DNA of 64,000 bases from Ignatzschineria rhizosphaerae (GTDB lineage: Bacteria; Pseudomonadota; Gammaproteobacteria; Cardiobacteriales; Wohlfahrtiimonadaceae): positions 2,290,501-2,354,500 of the forward strand of contig NZ_CP093379.1 in the NCBI RefSeq assembly GCF_022655595.1, given 5' to 3'. How positions within the stretch are numbered: the first letter of the stretch is position 1; each line of letters begins with the position of its first letter. The notes beneath the pieces were generated by a model. It saw only the letters and a program-made list of their open reading frames with translations. It searched no databases and was not told the origin of the DNA. The position numbers and the translations under genes were made by a program. Shown here piece by piece: positions 669 to 10,292 of this stretch.

Positions 669-1115
669 TTATCTATTATTAAAATGGCGTCTTTGATGGC
701 GAGGCGTATGATCTCTTCGCTCTGAACGAGAACCTTGGTGCATCTCTTGACGATGACCAGAATGCTGTCTCATTTCACCACGATGCTGATGAGCTTTACG
801 ATATTCTCCATGATTTCGTCCACTATGATGATATTGCTGAGGTTGATGGCGGGAACCATCACGATGATAACCTTGTTGATTCATCTGACGATGTCTTGGT
901 CCTTCTGCTCGATGATTATCATGGCGCATATTTTGATGATTTCGAACGTGGTTAGGTTGTCCCTTATCACTATTCATACGAGGATGATCTTGCCATTGCC
1001 CCATATTATCGCGTCTTGGTTGAGAATCACGCTCAACTGTTGGACCTGTAAACTGTGCAAAAGCAACCGATGAACTTAAAACTAAAGCTGATACTATAAT
1101 GAATTTACGCATCAT
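669..1115 (-). CDS. Secreted histidine/arginine-rich protein of unknown function
   Basis: 148 residues. A signal peptide (residues 1-20, MMRKFIIVSALVLSSSVAFA) is followed by QFTGP, nearly the mature N-terminus of the neighbouring ygiW-type BOF protein. The rest has no BOF fold and is dominated by His, Arg, Gln, Asn and Gly with many HH, HR and NH pairs; it is hydrophilic and has no cysteine. I do not recognise a family. A periplasmic metal-binding role (zinc, nickel or copper) is inference from composition. Its upstream region carries a QseB/PmrA-type CTTAA repeat, so it probably belongs to the adjacent two-component regulon. The start is set by AGGAG just upstream; a second ATG follows immediately. 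Confidence 0.75.
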   Translation of the reverse strand: MMRKFIIVSALVLSSSVAFAQFTGPTVERDSQPRRDNMGQWQDHPRMNSDKGQPNHVRNHQNMRHDNHRAEGPRHRQMNQQGYHRDGSRHQPQQYHHSGRNHGEYRKAHQHRGEMRQHSGHRQEMHQGSRSERRDHTPRHQRRHFNNR

Positions 1116-1178
1116 TCAATCTCCTTATGAGTTGGTTTCGTGATACTGCTTTTCATAGTTCTATTACACCATTCAAAC

Positions 1179-1195
1179 CTTAACGAAATCTTAAG
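1179..1195 (-). promoter_or_regulatory. QseB/PmrA-type box upstream of the His-rich gene
   Basis: CTTAACGAAATCTTAAG: two CTTAA half-sites 11 bp apart in direct repeat, ending 64 bp upstream of the start codon. The spacing matches the known PmrA/QseB recognition pattern. The bases between box and gene (a TAATA-AACTATGAAA stretch on the minus strand) are shared with the box at 1924-1940, suggesting a conserved promoter. Confidence 0.65.
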
Positions 1196-1245
1196 AGAAA
1201 TTAAATAACCCATTGAATTAGAAAAGATATCATTTTCCCCTACCT

Positions 1246-1278
1246 AAAAAAATAGCCCCATAATAAATTATGGAGCTA
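1246..1278 (-). terminator. Rho-independent terminator of the ygiW-type gene
   Basis: TAGCCCCATAAT pairs with ATTATGGAGCTA with one bulge. On the minus strand it is followed by seven T. It separates the ygiW-type gene from the promoter of the His-rich gene. Confidence 0.75.
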
Positions 1279-1372
1279 TACCCTTATTAAGATTCACACT
1301 TGCTATATAAATCTCTATTAAGAGGGATTTGGGAGACTTGTACTACATTTATAAGGAATAATTTATAAAATG

Positions 1373-1744
1373 TTATTTTTTGATAATACGATCAACATCT
1401 ATATCTGTTGCTCTATGGCGATGATGATCTACTTCACCATAAATAATAACTGTATCTTCAGGACCTACTTGCACGCCTCTCCAATCATCATGATCGATCT
1501 CAATGGAGATTTCGCCAGTTGCATCTCTAAAGAGATAATTTTCACCACCAAGATGCTTCACTATAGAACCTTCTAAAGTGACTTTTGTATCATCTCTGAG
1601 GGTTAATGCTTCTTTAACCGTTGTTGTACTATTATTTGTTGCGCTTTGACCTTTAAAGCCACCCGTTTGTGTCTCACCTGTAAATTGAGCAAATGCTACT
1701 GATGATCCTACTAAAAGTGCTGCAACCAATGTTAATTTACGCAT
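1373..1744 (-). CDS. ygiW: YgiW/YdeI-family BOF (OB-fold) periplasmic protein
   Basis: 123 residues from ATG at 1744, chosen because AGGAG sits 8 bases upstream. The signal peptide ends at AFA-Q (about residue 19). The mature part has the family pattern: TGGFKG, then SLRDDT-like LTLRDDTKVTLEGSIV, YLFRDATGEISIEIDHDDW, and a C-terminal DTVIIYGEVD followed by IDVDRI. The family is a bacterial OB-fold (BOF) periplasmic stress protein; E. coli ygiW lies next to qseBC, as here. Two CTTAA-type boxes lie upstream, supporting control by the adjacent regulator. The ligand is unknown in this organism. Confidence 0.88.
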   Translation of the reverse strand: MRKLTLVAALLVGSSVAFAQFTGETQTGGFKGQSATNNSTTTVKEALTLRDDTKVTLEGSIVKHLGGENYLFRDATGEISIEIDHDDWRGVQVGPEDTVIIYGEVDHHRHRATDIDVDRIIKK

Positions 1745-1810
1745 ATACAACTCCTATTATTAACAAATGTTAGATATCGCTATCTATATGAGTCATTAGA
1801 ACATTCTTTT

Positions 1811-1827
1811 CTTAAAGAAGTCTTAAG
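1811..1827 (-). promoter_or_regulatory. QseB/PmrA-type box proximal to ygiW
   Basis: CTTAAAGAAGTCTTAAG: CTTAA half-sites 11 bp apart, 67 bp upstream of the ygiW start. The placement relative to the start codon is nearly the same as for the His-rich gene. Confidence 0.65.
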
Positions 1828-1923
1828 ACAAAGATTTAAAATATGGGTTTATGATGTTCGAATCTTTTTGTCTTTGGGGAAACTCTCAAGATTCATTTCA
1901 TAGTTGTATTACAACCTATTAAC

Positions 1924-1940
1924 CTTAACTAAATCTTAAG
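1924..1940 (-). promoter_or_regulatory. QseB/PmrA-type box between qseC and ygiW
   Basis: CTTAACTAAATCTTAAG: the same 11-bp direct repeat, 30 bp past the sensor-kinase stop and about 180 bp upstream of ygiW. The flanking bases toward ygiW match those beside the box at 1179-1195, so this pair looks like a duplicated promoter. Confidence 0.6.
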
Positions 1941-1969
1941 CTATTCAATTAATTTATAAATCTCTGTAT

Positions 1970-3370
1970 TTAATTTCTAGATATGATCTTTCTAGGGATT
2001 GTGATTGTCACTTCTAGACCTTGATATTCAGGCTTTGAGCGGAATTTTAATTCCCCTTGATGAAGCTCGACGATTTTCTTCACAATCGATAATCCTAAGC
2101 CACTTCCTGTCTCTTTAGTCCCTAAAATTCGATAAAATCGTTGAGATAATCGTGATAACTCTTCCTGATTAACACCGGCCCCATTATCGCCAATAACTAA
2201 TTCGATCTTATCTCCAACGACTTTTGCATCTACTGTAATCGTTGTGGAAATCGGAGAATACTTAATCGCATTACCTAAGATATTTTTTAAAGCAACGAGT
2301 AAAAGATCATGATTTACAAATATCGATAGATGAGTTACCTCTTGTTTAATACACATCGATTTTGCTTTTAAAGCATCGCGATACGCTTCAAGCATCTCTG
2401 CATAGAGTGTATCCACTTGAACCTCCTCTTTTGGTAATTCATCTGAGGAGTCCATCGACATCGGATCTAAACGTGCCAAAATTAAGAGATGCTCAATTAA
2501 ATGAGTCGCTCTTCTTACATCATGTTGTAGCGGCGCTAATGCGCTTGTTAATTCCGGTGCTTGGCGCTGCAGAAGCTGAAGCTTCATCTGAATCGCACTT
2601 AAAGGCGTTCTTAACTCATGAGAAGCATCGGCGGTAAATTGTCTCTCATGCTTTCGGGCAATCTCTAAATTCGTTAATAACATATTGAGTGAATCCTCAA
2701 TCGCAACGATTTCTTGGCTATGAGCATTGACTGAAATAGGCGTTAAACGCTTAGGAGAAAGTTTTGCTAATTGATGCGAAATCTTCGTTAAGGGTTTTAA
2801 CCCAAAAAAGACTAATAAAGCATTAAATAAGATAGAGATTAAAAGAACTATTAAACCGGCAAAGACTAACTCTTCAATTAGATCTTCTAAAAACTCATGG
2901 CGCATTTCAACCGCGTGCCCCACTTGAATCTCATAAGCAGAATGTTTACGTTGTAAAACAAAAACCCGCCAAGGATCGCCATTAATGCTCACTTCAGCAA
3001 AGCCTTTATGCCCTTTAAAACGTTGCACAAAAGGGATATTAGGTGCTCTACTACTTTTAGCAATGACCTTGCCATCGCTAATGACCTGAAAATAAAAATG
3101 GTCCTCATCAAGGTCTACTCGCCCGTAACCTCGGCGCAACCAATCACGATTAGGCTCTGAACCTCGATCGACAAACTGTGATAAAACTTGAGCTGAGCGA
3201 ATTAAGGCTTCATCTAGCACATCTTTTGTCTGATTCCAGCTGACAAATGTTGTAATCGCAAAACTGATTCCCCAGAGAATCAGTGTTGAAGTAATAATGC
3301 CGGCAATAAGAGTACCACGAAGCGAATAGGTTCGTTTTCGTCTGAAAAATTTTCGAATCTTCTGTTTCAA
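1970..3370 (-). CDS. qseC: QseC-like sensor histidine kinase
   Basis: 466 residues. TM1 is at about 19-44, a periplasmic sensor at 45-165 (with DPWRVFVLQ and a VGHAVEMRHE stretch resembling QseC), and TM2 at about 166-190. A HAMP-like linker follows, then a HisKA domain with phospho-accepting H251 in ASHELRTPLS. The HATPase domain has N (NAIKYSP), DNGAGV and GSGLGLSIVKK motifs. It should autophosphorylate in response to an envelope signal and phosphorylate the response regulator encoded 26 bp upstream. QseC/PmrB relatives sense iron, other cations or catecholamines; the ligand here is not deducible. It is cotranscribed with qseB. Confidence 0.88.
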   Translation of the reverse strand: MKQKIRKFFRRKRTYSLRGTLIAGIITSTLILWGISFAITTFVSWNQTKDVLDEALIRSAQVLSQFVDRGSEPNRDWLRRGYGRVDLDEDHFYFQVISDGKVIAKSSRAPNIPFVQRFKGHKGFAEVSINGDPWRVFVLQRKHSAYEIQVGHAVEMRHEFLEDLIEELVFAGLIVLLISILFNALLVFFGLKPLTKISHQLAKLSPKRLTPISVNAHSQEIVAIEDSLNMLLTNLEIARKHERQFTADASHELRTPLSAIQMKLQLLQRQAPELTSALAPLQHDVRRATHLIEHLLILARLDPMSMDSSDELPKEEVQVDTLYAEMLEAYRDALKAKSMCIKQEVTHLSIFVNHDLLLVALKNILGNAIKYSPISTTITVDAKVVGDKIELVIGDNGAGVNQEELSRLSQRFYRILGTKETGSGLGLSIVKKIVELHQGELKFRSKPEYQGLEVTITIPRKIISRN

Positions 3371-3396
3371 TGATGCCTCCTATCTAAGGGATTTCG

Positions 3397-4050
3397 TTAC
3401 TGAATTAACGTATACCCAAGTCCCCTTCTTGTACGAATAAAGGTATTTCCTAACTTTTTACGAAGATGATGAATATGGACTTCCACCGCATTACTCTCCA
3501 CCTCATTGCCCCATGCATAGAGCTTATCTTCTAGCTCTTCTCTCGTAAAGGTTCGCGTTGGATGCTGCATCAATGTATGCAATACGGCATACTCTTTAGC
3601 CGTTAAGCTCACGGACTCTTCAGACTTTTGTACAATCTTTGTCGCAGGGTCTAATGTGACATCCGCGTGTGTAAAAATTGCCGAAGTTTGCTGGCTAGTT
3701 CTCCGAGAGATTGCCCTGATTCTTGCCGATAATTCCTCAAGATCAAATGGCTTAACTAAATAATCATCAGCCCCAAGATCTAACCCTTCAATCCGATCAG
3801 CGATACTATCTCTTGCCGTAATCATAATAATTGGCAGGGACTTTTTCTGCCCCCGAAAGAGCTTTAATATCATATCCCCTGATAATCCAGGAAGCCCTCT
3901 ATCTAATAGAAGGCAATCATAGGTATCGACCGTCACATTTTTTGCATCTGCGCCATTGCTTAACCAATCGACAATATAGCCATCAAGCTCTAACCATTTT
4001 TGTATGGTTTCACCCAGCGAAAGATCATCTTCTATTAATAATATTTTCAT
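3397..4050 (-). CDS. qseB: QseB-like OmpR-family response regulator
   Basis: 217 residues. The receiver domain (1-115) has the acidic pair ED (7-8), phospho-acceptor D50 in LLLDRGLPG and K in DYLVKPFD. The C-terminal winged helix includes LTAKEYAVLHTLMQHP and NAVEVHIHHLRKKLG, close to QseB/PmrA. It precedes qseC by 26 bp in one operon. Direct CTTAA repeats typical of this subfamily occur upstream of itself, ygiW and the His-rich gene, so it probably autoregulates and drives both secreted proteins. Confidence 0.9.
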   Translation of the reverse strand: MKILLIEDDLSLGETIQKWLELDGYIVDWLSNGADAKNVTVDTYDCLLLDRGLPGLSGDMILKLFRGQKKSLPIIMITARDSIADRIEGLDLGADDYLVKPFDLEELSARIRAISRRTSQQTSAIFTHADVTLDPATKIVQKSEESVSLTAKEYAVLHTLMQHPTRTFTREELEDKLYAWGNEVESNAVEVHIHHLRKKLGNTFIRTRRGLGYTLIQ

Positions 4051-4072
4051 ACGCTTACCCTAATCCTTTTTT

Positions 4073-4089
4073 CTTAAGAAAGTCTTAAC
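4073..4089 (-). promoter_or_regulatory. QseB/PmrA-type box upstream of qseB
   Basis: CTTAAGAAAGTCTTAAC: half-sites 11 bp apart, only 23 bp upstream of the qseB start. That leaves little room for a promoter between box and gene, so it may lie downstream of the start point and act as an autoregulatory operator. Confidence 0.55.
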
Positions 4090-4179: not shown

Positions 4180-5139
4180 TTAACTAAAAGATGCTCTTTT
4201 AACGGGAATAAAGAGTAAAAGCACTAAAATGACTGCTAACGCTGAGCCAATCATCGCATAATGAAAACCAGATACCCAAGCATCTTGCACCCAAGTAATA
4301 GATAGATCTTCCGGCAACATATTATGAATAATAATATCACTTGCAATCTGTCCATTTCCCCCACTAAAGGCTCCTAATCTTTCAGATAAGGTGGAAATGG
4401 CGCCTTTAGTCATCATTGCGCCTAAAAGAGCGATACTAATTGTCATCCCTGTTTGTCTAAAGGCATTCATTAATCCTGAAATAATGCCTAATCGATTTTT
4501 GGGCGCATCTTGCAACAAAAGTAGGCTAATTGCCGGAATAGAAACCCCCATACTGATTCCAAAAATCGTTAATTGAAGGGCGATGATCCAATAACTTGTC
4601 TCCCTGCCAATAAAAGCTAAAGAGAGAGATGCAATCGTCAATAAAACCATCGCGACCATTAATAATCCTTTAGCGGAAAGATAGCGAGAGTAAACCCCAT
4701 AAGTCATGCAACAAACGCCCATTGCTAAAAACTCTGGCGTCATCCGCAATCCTGTTTCAATCGCACTATAACCTTGTGCATTTTGGAAAAAAAGCGATAA
4801 GAAGAAGATATTGCTATAAGTGGTAAATCCTATGACAAAAGAGACAATATTGAAACGGGAGAATTGCCAATCCTTAAAGAGATCTAAGGGCATTAAGGGA
4901 TTTTTGCTATGAAACTGCTGCCATAAAAAGAGCCATAATAAGCATGCAACTATCATAAATAGCAATAGGCTCTGCAGTGATAAATTATTAGCAGAAAGAT
5001 TGATCAGCCCATAAGTTAATCCTGAAAGGATGAGAATTGCAAGAATTTGCCCAATAGGATCCATCGACCGTTTATGATTCAAATCTTCTTCTCGCTTAAT
5101 GCCATATAATCCTAATCCTGCGACTAAAAAACCAATAGG
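4180..5139 (-). pseudogene. DHA2-type MFS multidrug transporter, N-terminal part lost
   Basis: The frame is open from the IS481 edge at 5139 to the stop at 4180, about 318 codons, with no native start; coding begins in the middle of PIGFLVAGLGLYGIKRE. The sequence covers the second half of a 14-TM EmrB/QacA-like transporter: R-S-MDPIGQ loop, then eight or so hydrophobic helices, and PKNRLGIISGLMNAFRQTG, a conserved DHA2 loop. The missing half should contain the first six helices and motif A. An IS481 copy without target duplication sits exactly at the break, so loss was by recombination or deletion rather than simple insertion. The fragment cannot be functional. Confidence 0.85.
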
Positions 5140-6011
5140 TGTTAGAAATCGGCGGGTTGTTTACACTTCAGTGTTAAAATAATTTTCTAAAACTTCATAA
5201 GGCGTTAAACCATTAATACCCTTATGAGGTTTTACTGTGTTGTAATAGTTCAAAAATCGTTTTAGCTTCTTTTTCCGATCATCTGAACTGATAAACTCTT
5301 CCTGATTATGCCACATTTCCATGAGTGTTCGAATGACTCTTTCTGCTTTTCCATTCGTTTGAGGGCAAGCTGGCTTTGTAAACTTTTGATTAATCTTATG
5401 TGTTAGACACATTTCGACAAAGGCATGTTCTGATGTACCTTTATACTCACGACCATTATCCGAATAGGTGCATTCTACAGTATAGGGACACTGTTCTAAC
5501 AGATCCCATCGAAGAAATTCAGCAGCACTAAACTGTGATTTATCAGGATAAATACCGGCATAAAGTTCTCTTGAAAAATCATCAATTCCTACAAATAAAT
5601 ACTCTCTAGTGCGATTTTTAAGATCTCCTTTTAAAAGAGGGAGCCGTTTAGTATCCACATGGACCATCTCGCCAGGATAGTTTTTGTTATAACGTTTAGC
5701 CCTCTTTTTAAGTTTCTCTTCAATAGATTTTTCAATCTTTGCAAGACGTTTAATGCCATACTTAATTGTTCTATAACGTTCATTTTTACTAGCTAATGGC
5801 ACAAACAAGTTCAATCTACCTTGTTTTAGTACTTTATAGATCGTAGGTCTGCTTACCATAAAACGCTCAGCTAGATAGGTTACGGTAAATTTTTCTTGAT
5901 GATGTAATCGCCAAATCTCTTCTCGATGAAACGGCGTTAATTTTGTTTTTCGATGGATATTCATAACAGTATTTTCTCCTAATACTGTAAACAACGCGAT
6001 AAAATCCTACA
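5140..6011 (-). mobile_element. IS481-family element, copy A (872 bp, no target duplication)
   Basis: Ends are TGTTAGAAATCGGCGGGTTG on the left and the complement of TGTAGGATTTTATCGCGTTG on the right, imperfect inverted repeats sharing GTTGTTTACA. Left flank AACCAATAGG and right flank CATAAATGAT share no duplication. It joins a truncated MFS gene to a truncated tniQ, so it marks a recombination or deletion junction. Confidence 0.9.
5161..5964 (-). CDS. IS481-family transposase (copy A)
   Basis: 267 residues from ATG at 5964, preceded by AGGAG; a longer reading from 5994 lacks a ribosome site. An N-terminal helix-turn-helix (LAERFMVSRPTIYKVLKQG) is followed by an rve integrase core with the DDE triad: D in HVDTKRLP, D in SDNGREYKG, E in NGKAERVIRTL. 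It has the compact IS481 layout with one ORF and TGT...ACA ends. The frame is intact and probably active. Confidence 0.92.
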   Translation of the reverse strand: MNIHRKTKLTPFHREEIWRLHHQEKFTVTYLAERFMVSRPTIYKVLKQGRLNLFVPLASKNERYRTIKYGIKRLAKIEKSIEEKLKKRAKRYNKNYPGEMVHVDTKRLPLLKGDLKNRTREYLFVGIDDFSRELYAGIYPDKSQFSAAEFLRWDLLEQCPYTVECTYSDNGREYKGTSEHAFVEMCLTHKINQKFTKPACPQTNGKAERVIRTLMEMWHNQEEFISSDDRKKKLKRFLNYYNTVKPHKGINGLTPYEVLENYFNTEV

Positions 6012-6755
6012 CATAAATGATTTTTGTGAGCCAAAAAAGGGAAGAGAAATATCATCTAATATCTCTAACGATAATGGCATTTTTTTATCATTCTTATCTT
6101 TATATAAGATACTCTCAAGACTCCAACTTGCTAATTTAATTACAAACTGATCTCGATCTGCTAAAGACATATCTTCAGCCTTTACATTTGCAAGTGCTTC
6201 TCCTGACTGAAATGACTTTCTTTCAATAAAAAATTGTAGATTTAATGCTGATTGACTGGCTTTTATCATTGGCAGAATGCTTAAATCAGCGCCACAAATA
6301 CAGTACCCTACACGCCCCTTGCCTACAGGAATCTTGTTCAAACACTCAGGACAATACTCTTGTAAATACACCTTATGAACTAAACAAACAAGAGCTGACT
6401 TCCTTTGCCACTGCATACGATAGTATCTTTTTTCCATTAAACACTCTGGACAAAACTTAATTGTTTGTTTATTCAGGAGTACAGCAGGAAAGCTCACAAT
6501 TTCTTCTGTTAATAGTGATGCCTTATAGTCTAACCACACGGTTGACTTTAATAAGTAAAAAGTTGCATGGTGTGTTAAAGCAAAGCGCTTTTCTGTCTTA
6601 GAAAATATCATCCATGCTATAGCATTATAAGAGTTACTATTCACAAGCCGCATTAAATAACTTATAGGATCTTCATCCATATAAGGTTTAACATGTATTA
6701 AAGGCTTAATGATTTCAAAATTAGGAATTGAACCCACTGTAGCCTCCTGCAACAT
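6012..6755 (-). pseudogene. tniQ: TniQ/TnsD-family target-selection protein, C-terminal part lost
   Basis: About 248 native codons remain before IS481 sequence replaces the rest. The N-terminus has the TniQ pattern (P-DEDPISYLMRL), then zinc-binding pairs C102/C105 with C124/H127 and C135/C138 with C152/C154. TniQ/TnsD proteins recognise the attachment site and recruit TnsC. The lost C-terminal region normally carries the DNA-binding helices, so site recognition is probably abolished. It overlaps tnsC by 35 bp, consistent with one operon. Confidence 0.85.
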
Positions 6756-7671
6756 GGAATGGCATATTTAATTGAGTTAACGATTTCCATGTAAATTTAT
6801 CATGAAAAGGATTTAACTCATCCGGAGCATCACTCCAAATATATCGTTTAAACGCTTCATAAAAAGACTCTTGAGTAATCGAAACATTTCCATTTAACAA
6901 TGCAGTCTCACAAGCTCCAATCATAACTTTAACTATATAATCAATTATTCCATTGGAAGCATAATGTAACCTTTCTAATACCTCAGAATCTCGAATATTG
7001 ATATCCATTGGGTAATCGTGCAACTCTTGTAATTTAAAAACAACACCAGCAAAGGTTTGATAGTCATCTTTATCTTTCAAATCAAAAGCTTTTAAATGAA
7101 TTCTTTGATTAAAGCGACGGCGTAACTGCTCATTCACTTTTAAAATTTGTTCACTACGCTCTAATCCCATTAAAACTGTTGGTATATTAGCTTTATCAAC
7201 AAGATTTTTAAGCCAATCCGCAACTTGATAAGGTGTATTTTTTCTTCCTTGATCTATAAAATGTTGCAGTTCATCAAAAATAATTAGTTGAACTCTGCAT
7301 TTTTCTAAAAAGGACAATATACGTACAGTCTTGTTTTCAGCAGTACCTTTTCCTGCTAATGGGTCCCCAAAGGCTAAAAGCATTGTTTCAGCAATATTTT
7401 TTACTGTTGGTATTGCTGGTGTATCAACTGTTAGAACTGGGATGATAGGTACTCCTACAACTTCTTTTCTAGGGTAAGCTTTCTCTACCTCCTTCTTTAT
7501 AGTACTTTTTCCCGTCCCTGCAGCACCAATACATAATAAGTTCTGTGAAATTCCCGTAAATTTTTTAAGCTCTAAAATGGACTGTATTTGTTGATAGGCT
7601 ATTTCAAACTGTGGATAACGAATTACTTTTTGTTTTAACAAAGCTATCATCCTAAACCGTTGACTATTCAT
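6721..7671 (-). CDS. tnsC: TnsC/TniB AAA+ transposition regulator
   Basis: 316 residues from ATG at 7671, chosen because GGAGGAGG precedes it and it overlaps the tnsB stop; an upstream start at 7692 would have no ribosome site. Walker A is GAAGTGKST (49-57), Walker B LIIFDELQH (129-137), and an arginine-rich sensor region LRRRFNQRIHL follows. It belongs to the TniB/TnsC family that links the TniQ target complex to the TnsB transposase. The frame is intact. Confidence 0.92.
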   Translation of the reverse strand: MNSQRFRMIALLKQKVIRYPQFEIAYQQIQSILELKKFTGISQNLLCIGAAGTGKSTIKKEVEKAYPRKEVVGVPIIPVLTVDTPAIPTVKNIAETMLLAFGDPLAGKGTAENKTVRILSFLEKCRVQLIIFDELQHFIDQGRKNTPYQVADWLKNLVDKANIPTVLMGLERSEQILKVNEQLRRRFNQRIHLKAFDLKDKDDYQTFAGVVFKLQELHDYPMDINIRDSEVLERLHYASNGIIDYIVKVMIGACETALLNGNVSITQESFYEAFKRYIWSDAPDELNPFHDKFTWKSLTQLNMPFHVAGGYSGFNS

Positions 7672-9586
7672 TATCCTCCTCCTTGTCCCCAAGCACCTTA
7701 AAATCAGGAATCTTATCTAATAAAAATCGCGGGCTTTTCTTATTTATCTTTTTTAGAGGAACAGCCTCAATATTAAAAGTGTTAATATCTCCGATACGCA
7801 CTGCTTGAGAGCGTTTTTTAATACCTTTACTGCTACTCAATCTTTTCAGTTTTTCATTCAATTTTGTTTTAGCTTCTCTTAAACTATTCACGGTCTCTTC
7901 TTCTACTATTTTTTGCTGCTCTAACCTCTCCTTTAAAACCATTTCTTGCTGTAATAGTGTTAAGTTTTTTGCATATTCTTCATCTGTACAGGGTACTTCT
8001 ATGAAAACATCATTACCTTGATCATAAACCCATATTTTTTCTATATTTTCTGGGTCAACACGTATTTGCACTTTAGCCCTATTTCCATATAAAATTCTCA
8101 GCATTCTTAACGACTCCGAGTTATAGGTTAGCCTCTTAAAATGAATCCCCTCATGACTCATTGATCTGTCGTATTGCTTAGCACAAATTAAATTAAATTG
8201 ATCTCTATCTTTAGGTAAAATAGCAGGAACTCTTTGAATATCTTTGATCCACTGCTGATAAGGTGTCGTTCCTAATGTTCCATGAACGGTTTGTAAGTAA
8301 ATATCTACAATCCAAAAATAAATAATATTTTGTAGCTCCAAGAGAGTAATCGTTGCTTCTGATATCGAATTATAATCACCTCTTTCCCTAATATTCGAGA
8401 AAGTAGTTCCACGAATTCTTTGAGAAACTTGCCCATTAAGTGTTCCTAAAAATCGCTCAACGCGACCTTTATAATTTGGTTCATGCTTAGGACAGAACAT
8501 TAGTTCAATGTTAAGTTCTCCACAAATTCTGCGAAGATGGGCAGAATGAAACTCAAGTCCATTATCACAAACTAGTAGTGCGGGAATCCCAAATGCAGGC
8601 CATGCCCCTTTAATATCAGGTACATTTTTTATTAAATCATCTTTCCCCCAAATAGCCTGCTTCAATGCTCGTACAACTGATAGTTCAGAAGGCGGCTCAA
8701 ATCCTATAGAAACAGCTAAAGGCATTCGTGTATGGCTGTCTAACAAACAAGTTAAATAAGGCCTTCCAATGACTAGTCCTGTTCTTTCATCTAAAACCAT
8801 TACATCCAAAGGTGTATGGTCGATTTCTACTCGTTCTAGTGGGTAAGTTGTTCTAACACCTTTACCTGAAATCCGATAATACTTATTAGCTGCTTTAATA
8901 CCATGTCTTTCAGCCATAACTGTATAATCATCTAACTCACCTATCATCCTATAAACTGTCGCTCTTGATGGAGACTCAATAGCGGTTTTCATAACATGGT
9001 TATAATGTTTAATCCGACTTATCAAGCTAAAATATACTTCCTGCTTACTTTGTCGCTCCTTAGTTAAGTAAATTTCGTTAACAACTTCATAAAAAATATC
9101 ACCAATCGTTTCTTTATATTTCCGATATCCTTTTTTTCCATCAGGTTTATTTTCTAACGAGTTTAATTGATGTCCAGATTCTTCCCACTTTTTCCACCAC
9201 CTGTAAAGAGTAAGGCTAGAAGGAGGGGAACAATCATCAATATTGTTAGCAACCCGAACAATTAACTCTTCTAATCCGACTCTTTGAGGCCATGGATATT
9301 CTTTTTGGGCCGCCTTCACATACTCATATCTCCTTAAAACTTCTTCTCTTTGTGATTCAGATATCAACGAAAAAACTCGACCTTCATCTGTTAAAATTAA
9401 ATTTTCTTCAATAAATTTTATAGTTCCTAATCTAAGCAATCTCTCAGCTTCATTCAAAGCAAGTTTAAGCTCTTGCGGACTTCCAGCTTCTTTTAAAATA
9501 ATTTCTTCATGAGAGATAGAGAATATTTGGTAATATATATTATTAAAAATCAGGTGCTGACCGATATTGAAATAAGCATGTTTCAT
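7664..9586 (-). CDS. tnsB: TnsB/TniA-type DDE transposase
   Basis: 640 residues from ATG at 9586; an in-frame ATG at 9592 lies too close to the AAGGGA ribosome site. N-terminal helix-turn-helix DNA-binding domains span about 90-240. The catalytic core has D258 (VEIDHTPLD), D343 (VCDNGLEFH) and E379 (KGRVERFLG), numbered from the upstream Met. A Mu-transposase-like C-terminal domain and a charged coiled tail that should contact TnsC follow. It overlaps tnsA upstream and tnsC downstream. It probably binds the 20-bp repeats at 11741-11840. Confidence 0.93.
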   Translation of the reverse strand: MKHAYFNIGQHLIFNNIYYQIFSISHEEIILKEAGSPQELKLALNEAERLLRLGTIKFIEENLILTDEGRVFSLISESQREEVLRRYEYVKAAQKEYPWPQRVGLEELIVRVANNIDDCSPPSSLTLYRWWKKWEESGHQLNSLENKPDGKKGYRKYKETIGDIFYEVVNEIYLTKERQSKQEVYFSLISRIKHYNHVMKTAIESPSRATVYRMIGELDDYTVMAERHGIKAANKYYRISGKGVRTTYPLERVEIDHTPLDVMVLDERTGLVIGRPYLTCLLDSHTRMPLAVSIGFEPPSELSVVRALKQAIWGKDDLIKNVPDIKGAWPAFGIPALLVCDNGLEFHSAHLRRICGELNIELMFCPKHEPNYKGRVERFLGTLNGQVSQRIRGTTFSNIRERGDYNSISEATITLLELQNIIYFWIVDIYLQTVHGTLGTTPYQQWIKDIQRVPAILPKDRDQFNLICAKQYDRSMSHEGIHFKRLTYNSESLRMLRILYGNRAKVQIRVDPENIEKIWVYDQGNDVFIEVPCTDEEYAKNLTLLQQEMVLKERLEQQKIVEEETVNSLREAKTKLNEKLKRLSSSKGIKKRSQAVRIGDINTFNIEAVPLKKINKKSPRFLLDKIPDFKVLGDKEEDNE

Positions 9587-10292
9587 AAACATTCCCTTTT
9601 TTTATATTTGAAAAAATAAATGTATTGCTCGTTAATTCATCATTTAAATCACAAACTAGATACCCATTCGCAATAGCACTATAAATAAATTCCATTTCAT
9701 AAAAGCAAGCCAAATCCTTTAAAGTCATTGAGTTACAATTACTTCTAGCATAAGCTTCATTTAATGAAAGCTGATCTTCTCTAGTTATTTCTAAATTTTG
9801 AAATTGCCTTAGTATCAATAAATTATGCTCTCTTATTGGATTTATTAACTCTTTATCAGTCAATACAATAAAATCAATATTTTGCTTTAAAAAATAAAGA
9901 GCAACATGATTAAAATAGTCTTTTAAATTAATTAATTTATTTAATGGCTTTATTTCACAATAACTAATCTCTCCAAATTGATTTATAATTTCAAAATCAG
10001 GAGTGTAACGTTTAATTTCACTTTGAAATGGAATAGAAAAGCGTTCTGGCTGCTCTTTAAAAGATAAAATATTAGATGAAAATTCAAATAGATAACATGC
10101 TCTACGCTCTAACTGAGACTCCCACGCAATCATTCTTTGCATCTTTTTAGAAGGAAACTGTCCTCGTACAGTCATACGCGAAGGCGTTACTGGATTCCTA
10201 ACTCTATAATTATTTTTTTCTGCCAAGCTTCTCTTCAGTATTGAAATACCAGATAACTTCTGCACGATAAGTCGTTTGTTTTTTACAGACAT
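9543..10292 (-). CDS. tnsA: TnsA endonuclease of Tn7-like transposon
   Basis: 249 residues from ATG at 10292, with AAGGA 6 bases upstream; the open frame continues to 10439 but that extension lacks a ribosome site. Catalytic signature: E58/E62 in AWESQLER, D99 in YTPDFEI, and E113-x-K115 in CEIKPL, the restriction-endonuclease fold of TnsA. TnsA cuts the 5' ends so the element moves by cut-and-paste. It overlaps tnsB by 44 bp. The 178-bp gap to the next gene holds an AT-rich likely promoter and a hairpin (about 10423-10456) ending in T6 on the plus strand. Confidence 0.92.
   Translation of the reverse strand: MSVKNKRLIVQKLSGISILKRSLAEKNNYRVRNPVTPSRMTVRGQFPSKKMQRMIAWESQLERRACYLFEFSSNILSFKEQPERFSIPFQSEIKRYTPDFEIINQFGEISYCEIKPLNKLINLKDYFNHVALYFLKQNIDFIVLTDKELINPIREHNLLILRQFQNLEITREDQLSLNEAYARSNCNSMTLKDLACFYEMEFIYSAIANGYLVCDLNDELTSNTFIFSNIKKGNVYETCLFQYRSAPDF

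Follow-up and report, generated by a model that had tools for sequence, protein, structure and literature searches.

The signal sensed by the QseBC two-component system is disputed, and the sequences bound by its regulator QseB disagree between species; the QseB of Aggregatibacter reportedly has a CTTAA-N6-CTTAA site. In Enterobacterales (E. coli K-12, Salmonella), the gene for a BOF (bacterial OB-fold) protein, ygiW, adjoins the QseB/QseC-type pair, named QseBC or PreAB. The orthologue of QseB in Salmonella, PreA, is a strong activator of ygiW (355-fold), of a cytochrome b561 gene (372-fold by qRT-PCR) and of its own operon, and the ygiW start was mapped at -161 (PMC2653508). The BOF gene of Haemophilus and other Pasteurellaceae is under autoregulated QseBC-type control (ygiW-qseBC/FirRS), in one operon with ygiW first, and Fe2+, Zn2+ and cold are the reported inducers (review PMC12737762). 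A related regulator, PmrA (BasR), has a box in Salmonella, Klebsiella and E. coli composed of two CTTAAG-like hexamers, head to tail, with five bp between them (PMC3973317; PMC10729948); in its verified Salmonella form the first base of half-site 2 is free (PMC3973317). The consensus described for E. coli QseB, G(C/T)(G/A)ACAAT(A/T)A-N4-TT, is different from the PmrA-type box (PMC10729948).

Here we analyse a locus in a 64-kb stretch of DNA from Ignatzschineria rhizosphaerae (the window). It is a known kind of system, to which the analysis adds a more precise promoter layout and a small number of likely further targets. A BOF gene adjoins a QseB/QseC-type pair, as in both families above. The gene order on the minus strand is qseB, qseC, ygiW and a gene for a His-rich exported protein (Table 1), whereas ygiW and qseBC are divergent in E. 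coli; two boxes at ygiW and a His-rich neighbour with its own box further distinguish the locus from the QseBC of Enterobacterales. The Pasteurellaceae order ygiW-qseB-qseC is not found here either, since ygiW follows qseC and has promoters of its own. Taking all lines of evidence together, we consider it highly probable that the boxes are sites at which the regulator activates ygiW, the His-rich gene, probably qseBC, and unlinked copies of the promoter, and that the His-rich gene probably acquired its promoter and signal peptide by duplication.

Results and Discussion

Table 1. Genes, boxes and predicted promoter elements of the locus (window coordinates).
Feature	Coordinates	Strand	Description
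His/Arg/Gln-rich exported protein	669..1112	(-)	147 aa; YgiW-like signal peptide; mature part low-complexity, basic
Putative -10 of His-rich gene promoter	1163..1168	(-)	TGTAAT; spacing 10
His-rich gene box	1179..1195	(-)	CTTAAG-atttc-GTTAAG
Terminator-like hairpin	1252..1279	(-)	12-pair stem then T run; parts ygiW from the His-rich unit
ygiW, BOF exported stress protein	1373..1744	(-)	123 aa; PF04076, E=2.8e-30
Putative -10 of proximal ygiW promoter	1795..1800	(-)	TCTAAT; spacing 10
Proximal ygiW box	1811..1827	(-)	CTTAAG-acttc-TTTAAG; core kept in G008, N5 diverged
Putative -10 of distal ygiW promoter	1908..1913	(-)	TGTAAT; spacing 10
Distal ygiW box	1924..1940	(-)	CTTAAG-attta-GTTAAG; conserved in G008
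qseC-like sensor histidine kinase	1970..3370	(-)	466 aa; 2CSK_N, HisKA and HATPase_c
qseB-like response regulator	3397..4050	(-)	OmpR family, 217 aa; Pfam PF00072 and PF00486
Possible qseB -10	4057..4062	(-)	TAGGGT; 10 bp after box; ends 6 nt before ATG
qseB box	4073..4089	(-)	GTTAAG-acttt-CTTAAG; 22 bp before ATG

YgiW scores well above the cut-offs of the YgiW/NirD BOF family (PF04076, 104.9 bits against 25.8; NF033674, 128.6 against 35), and the His-rich protein matched no family in Pfam or NCBIfam searches. Upstream of qseB (window 4180-5994), a DHA2-type MFS transporter gene is present as a C-terminal fragment only (300 aa). After it come a transposase with rve domains (5161-5994; second copy at L281:2223-2999) and TniQ, TniB and a Mu-type, TniA-like transposase (5979-9592), a Tn5053/Tn7-like transposition module adjoining the locus.

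An earlier note on this DNA had placed CTTAA-N6-CTTAA at 1179, 1811, 1924 and 4073, with one or two boxes ahead of the His-rich gene, ygiW and qseB alike. A scan of the window bore out both positions and places, ygiW being the gene with two boxes, and these are the sole exact matches in the 64 kb. The expectation from window shuffles is 0.62, with four or more matches in 2 of 100 shuffles, and a period of 11 gives four sites, whereas none of the other periods between 5 and 21 has more than two (range 0-2). Dinucleotide shuffling of the three upstream regions (611 bp; n=20,000) yielded no box in 19,818 cases, one in 180, two in 2 and never more. The bare pattern occurs 24 times in the 3.07-Mb genome, approximately what the window shuffles predict, and was dropped as a genome-wide target finder because of this background frequency. 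The reservation that such spacing might be common in random DNA therefore holds for the bare pattern but not for four boxes in 611 bp, and the signal rests on clustering and context.

As the genes lie on the minus strand, the functional reading of the boxes (GTTAAGactttCTTAAG, CTTAAGatttaGTTAAG, CTTAAGacttcTTTAAG and CTTAAGatttcGTTAAG on that strand) is NTTAAG-N5-NTTAAG, and downstream means towards lower coordinates. Like the PmrA box, they consist of two direct hexamers of the type (C/T)TTAA(G/T) five bp apart: the spacing and the TTAAG cores are present in 4/4. C or T opens both halves only at 1811, whereas one half-site starts with G at 1179, 1924 and 4073, and the half-sites end in G, not T. 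A relaxed YTTAAK box followed by T-N4-T at spacing 10 was rejected as too noisy, a reversed control having 145 matches to its 217. A tandem run of the 11-bp unit TTTAATAGAGG at G000:C1:1225647-1225712 surfaced as repeated box-like matches.

Each of the ygiW and His-rich boxes is followed, after exactly 10 bp, by a TNTAAT hexamer, and a promoter scan found no ordinary sigma-70 -35/-10 promoters at the box sites. Similarity to TATAAT in the ygiW/His-rich set peaks at spacing 10 with 4.93 of 6 (next spacing 3.27), and in other BOF promoters with 4.88 (next 2.88). The corresponding peaks are 5.0 for small-membrane-protein promoters, 3.75 for those of an RND adaptor and 3.88 for qseB; every promoter group peaks at spacing 10 and at no other. 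The picture is one of putative activator-dependent promoters at ygiW and the His-rich gene, with the box standing in for the -35. In the proposed mechanism, a dimer of the phosphorylated QseB-like protein would occupy the head-to-tail repeat and bring RNA polymerase to the -10 exactly 10 bp on, replacing the -35, as at PmrA-type promoters. Through such binding and activation the regulator would turn on ygiW from two promoters, the His-rich gene and, probably, its own genes qseBC. Unlinked promoter copies would extend control to a small membrane protein encoded beside dapB and to an RND-efflux adaptor. By analogy with QseBC and FirRS, the signal may be envelope or metal stress.

The earlier note had also seen about 30 bp shared downstream of two boxes, as in a duplicated promoter. 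The sharing was confirmed, its extent had to be revised. Around boxes 1179 and 1924, an alignment of ~45 bp includes the box itself (score 59; shuffles reach at most 26). A second alignment, of ~165 bp (score 54; at most 31 in shuffles), pairs the promoter, leader and signal-peptide region of the His-rich gene with the promoter and signal peptide of proximal ygiW, so that promoter, leader and signal-peptide coding region are all involved. The signal peptides are near-identical (MRKFIIVSALVLSSSVAFAQFTG and MRKLTLVAALLVGSSVAFAQFTG) and the mature parts unrelated. The promoter and signal-peptide region of the His-rich gene thus probably derives from duplication of the ygiW region, and the simplest reading of the alignments is that a promoter-plus-export cassette was duplicated and the mature part then changed fast. 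In relatives the partner, encoded before ygiW in some and after it in others, is likewise exported, basic and of low complexity (137-189 aa). Its composition varies from one species to another (H/R/Q-rich; Q/G/H/M repeats; GPKGEHRKHE repeats; K/E-rich). For the His-rich protein, a buffering role for metals or protons, or chaperone activity, would be a guess.

Because the qseB box is only 22 bp from the start codon, its role may differ from that of the other boxes. This distance is common to our genome and the relatives G008 and G007, in which a -10-like element (TAGGGT, TAGGGT and TAAGGT, respectively) ends 6 nt before the ATG; a transcript from this promoter would therefore be leaderless. In the other five species the box ends 37-43 bp before the ATG, giving a normal leader. 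We tentatively entertain, as somewhat doubtful, the idea that QseBC in this genus acquired a second, fast-evolving output: a basic, His-containing, low-complexity exported protein, in which duplicated ygiW sequence (promoter, leader and signal peptide) was joined to an unrelated mature part and only the promoter and export signal can still be recognised across species. On this view the autoregulated qseB transcript would begin at the ATG, without a leader, in three species. It is likewise possible, if not what we expect, that the regulator binds all boxes and activates at ygiW and the His-rich gene, but that the qseB box acts as an autorepressor site or roadblock in the leader of a further-upstream transcript. 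The short distance to the ATG in the three genomes would suit such a role, as would the weakness of the -10, which overlaps Shine-Dalgarno-like bases, and a TATGAT that all three genomes have ~75 bp upstream; the TAGGGT/TAAGGT bases could instead be the Shine-Dalgarno of a transcript starting from this TATGAT. Against repression, T-A-N3-T is retained at spacing 10 in 8/8 qseB promoters compared, and the five species with the longer distance have the box placed as in an ordinary activated promoter. The sequence is compatible with activation, repression or both at the qseB box.

At 48% identity the regulator is closer to E. coli QseB than to BasR (43%), also in its DNA-binding half (49% and 41%), and the kinase shares 34% of its residues with QseC and 25% with BasS. 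Unlike PmrA itself, the regulator groups in a tree with QseB-type proteins, apart from BasR, CusR and PhoP. The NCBIfam equivalog models for QseB (NF007663) and QseC (NF007664) are the best matches of the two proteins but score below cut-off (227.9 against 345 bits and 214.2 against 475 bits), and the regulator also falls below the cut-off of the PmrA model (219.3 against 330 bits). Since both proteins miss the equivalog cut-offs, membership stops at 'QseB-like'. The EVHIH-LR-K recognition-helix region is common to the locus regulator and PmrA.

The match to a PmrA/QseB direct repeat of 11-bp period, as the earlier note had it, stands for its PmrA half: the boxes are of PmrA type and conserved in the genus. 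The E. coli QseB consensus, allowing up to two mismatches, has 67 matches in the window against 69 by chance and none in the three upstream regions, and was rejected as the identity of the box. That this consensus is a different sequence (PMC10729948) counts against regulation by the QseB-like protein. In G007 an extra BasR-like regulator and kinase pair lies near the qseBC locus (L144:10091-11760), with no counterpart near the locus in the window. We regard it as improbable that another PmrA-type regulator, rather than the neighbouring one, binds the boxes. The G007 pair and the cross-talk of PmrA and QseB at the E. coli arn promoter (PMC10729948) speak for such an arrangement; yet the regulator of the locus is the sole one of PmrA/QseB type in our genome, where the next closest are only 33-38% identical to it, and therefore no better candidate for a PmrA-type box is encoded there, and in distant bacteria the boxes accompany BOF genes and qseB-type regulators.

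Within the genus, a protein search found qseB in 7 of the 8 other genomes; all seven have a box ahead of qseB, together with one or more at ygiW or the His-rich gene. In the eighth relative (G001), the kinase shares one contig with ygiW and a His/Gln-rich gene, and a box precedes each of the latter two. Between the window and G008 the box cores are identical at 40/40 positions (ten core bases in each of four boxes), compared to 14/20 for the N5 spacers and 259/392 for the remaining upstream DNA (core against rest, Fisher p=2.6e-7). Fourteen perfect box-N10-TNTAAT promoters exist in the nine genus genomes, every one in the qseBC-ygiW locus.

Beyond the genus, the 300 bp upstream were searched at 80 distant regulator loci from other bacteria: 12 contain a box (shuffles, 0.35), and in all three with a BOF gene nearby that gene has the box. 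As here, a box with a -10 at spacing 10 faces ygiW in E. coli K-12 (CTTAAG-aagtt-GTTAAG, ten bp, TTAAAT), and the layout recurs at ygiW in Providencia, an Enterobacterales isolate and Massilia. The start mapped at -161 in Salmonella is not where the box layout would place it in E. coli, which counts against activation from these boxes. A search of 369 genomes of the class for perfect CTTAAG-N6-TTAAG-N10-TNTAAT promoters matched 13 genomes, with 2 control matches. None of the readable genes downstream of these promoters outside the genus encodes a BOF protein; the layout is therefore general, which does not imply that the regulon is. Three genomes (G122, G144 and G336; L284-L301) have two to five perfect CTTAAG-N6-TTAAG-N10-TATAAT promoters each at BOF-unrelated genes, a pattern that suggests larger PmrA-type regulons there. 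Chance AT-rich repeats without function have next to no probability as an explanation: the bare pattern is at genome background and one-mismatch matches are common, but the clustering, a conserved core rather than spacer, the fixed -10 spacing and the recurrence at ygiW in distant genera all oppose it, and the conservation tests already contradict it.

The notion of a compact regulon, confined to the cluster, did not survive, as conserved box-N10-(-10) promoters also precede unlinked genes. In our genome alone, off-locus boxes followed at spacing 10 by a -10 hardly exceed the background, and we therefore trust those conserved between species. The relatives G002 and G006 carry two further unlinked BOF genes each, and the box, with its -10 at spacing 10, precedes 4/4 of them; no box is present at the second BOF genes of our genome and G001, which counts against control by the regulator. 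The layout precedes the small membrane protein gene beside dapB in six genomes including ours; its product matches no family above cut-off. Upstream of this gene there are three half-sites with an 11-bp period (CTTAAGAAATATTTAAGCAAGTCTTAAG; L150:6631-6663, G000:C1:3070630-3070662). An RND-efflux periplasmic adaptor gene (TIGR01730) has the layout with a weaker -10 in our genome, G003, G004 and G007; a near-identical site in G005 lies ahead of a gene that was not read. From this conservation, the other BOF genes of the two relatives, the dapB-adjacent membrane protein and the RND-efflux adaptor are likely off-locus targets. In our genome, a cytochrome b561 gene likewise has a box in front of it, with GATAAT at spacing 10; genus searches found no such site elsewhere in the genus, and since PreA targets include a cytochrome b561 gene, the site counts in favour of control by the QseB-like regulator. 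A MacA-like adaptor gene (TATGCT) and a ferric-reductase-like gene (TAGGAT) have candidate sites only.

Conclusion

At ygiW promoters from Massilia to E. coli, NTTAAG-N5-NTTAAG followed after 10 bp by a -10 would offer a simple rule for finding direct targets of such regulators. The predicted targets point to a core output of envelope proteins, comprising BOF proteins, a cationic exported protein, an efflux adaptor and a small membrane protein.
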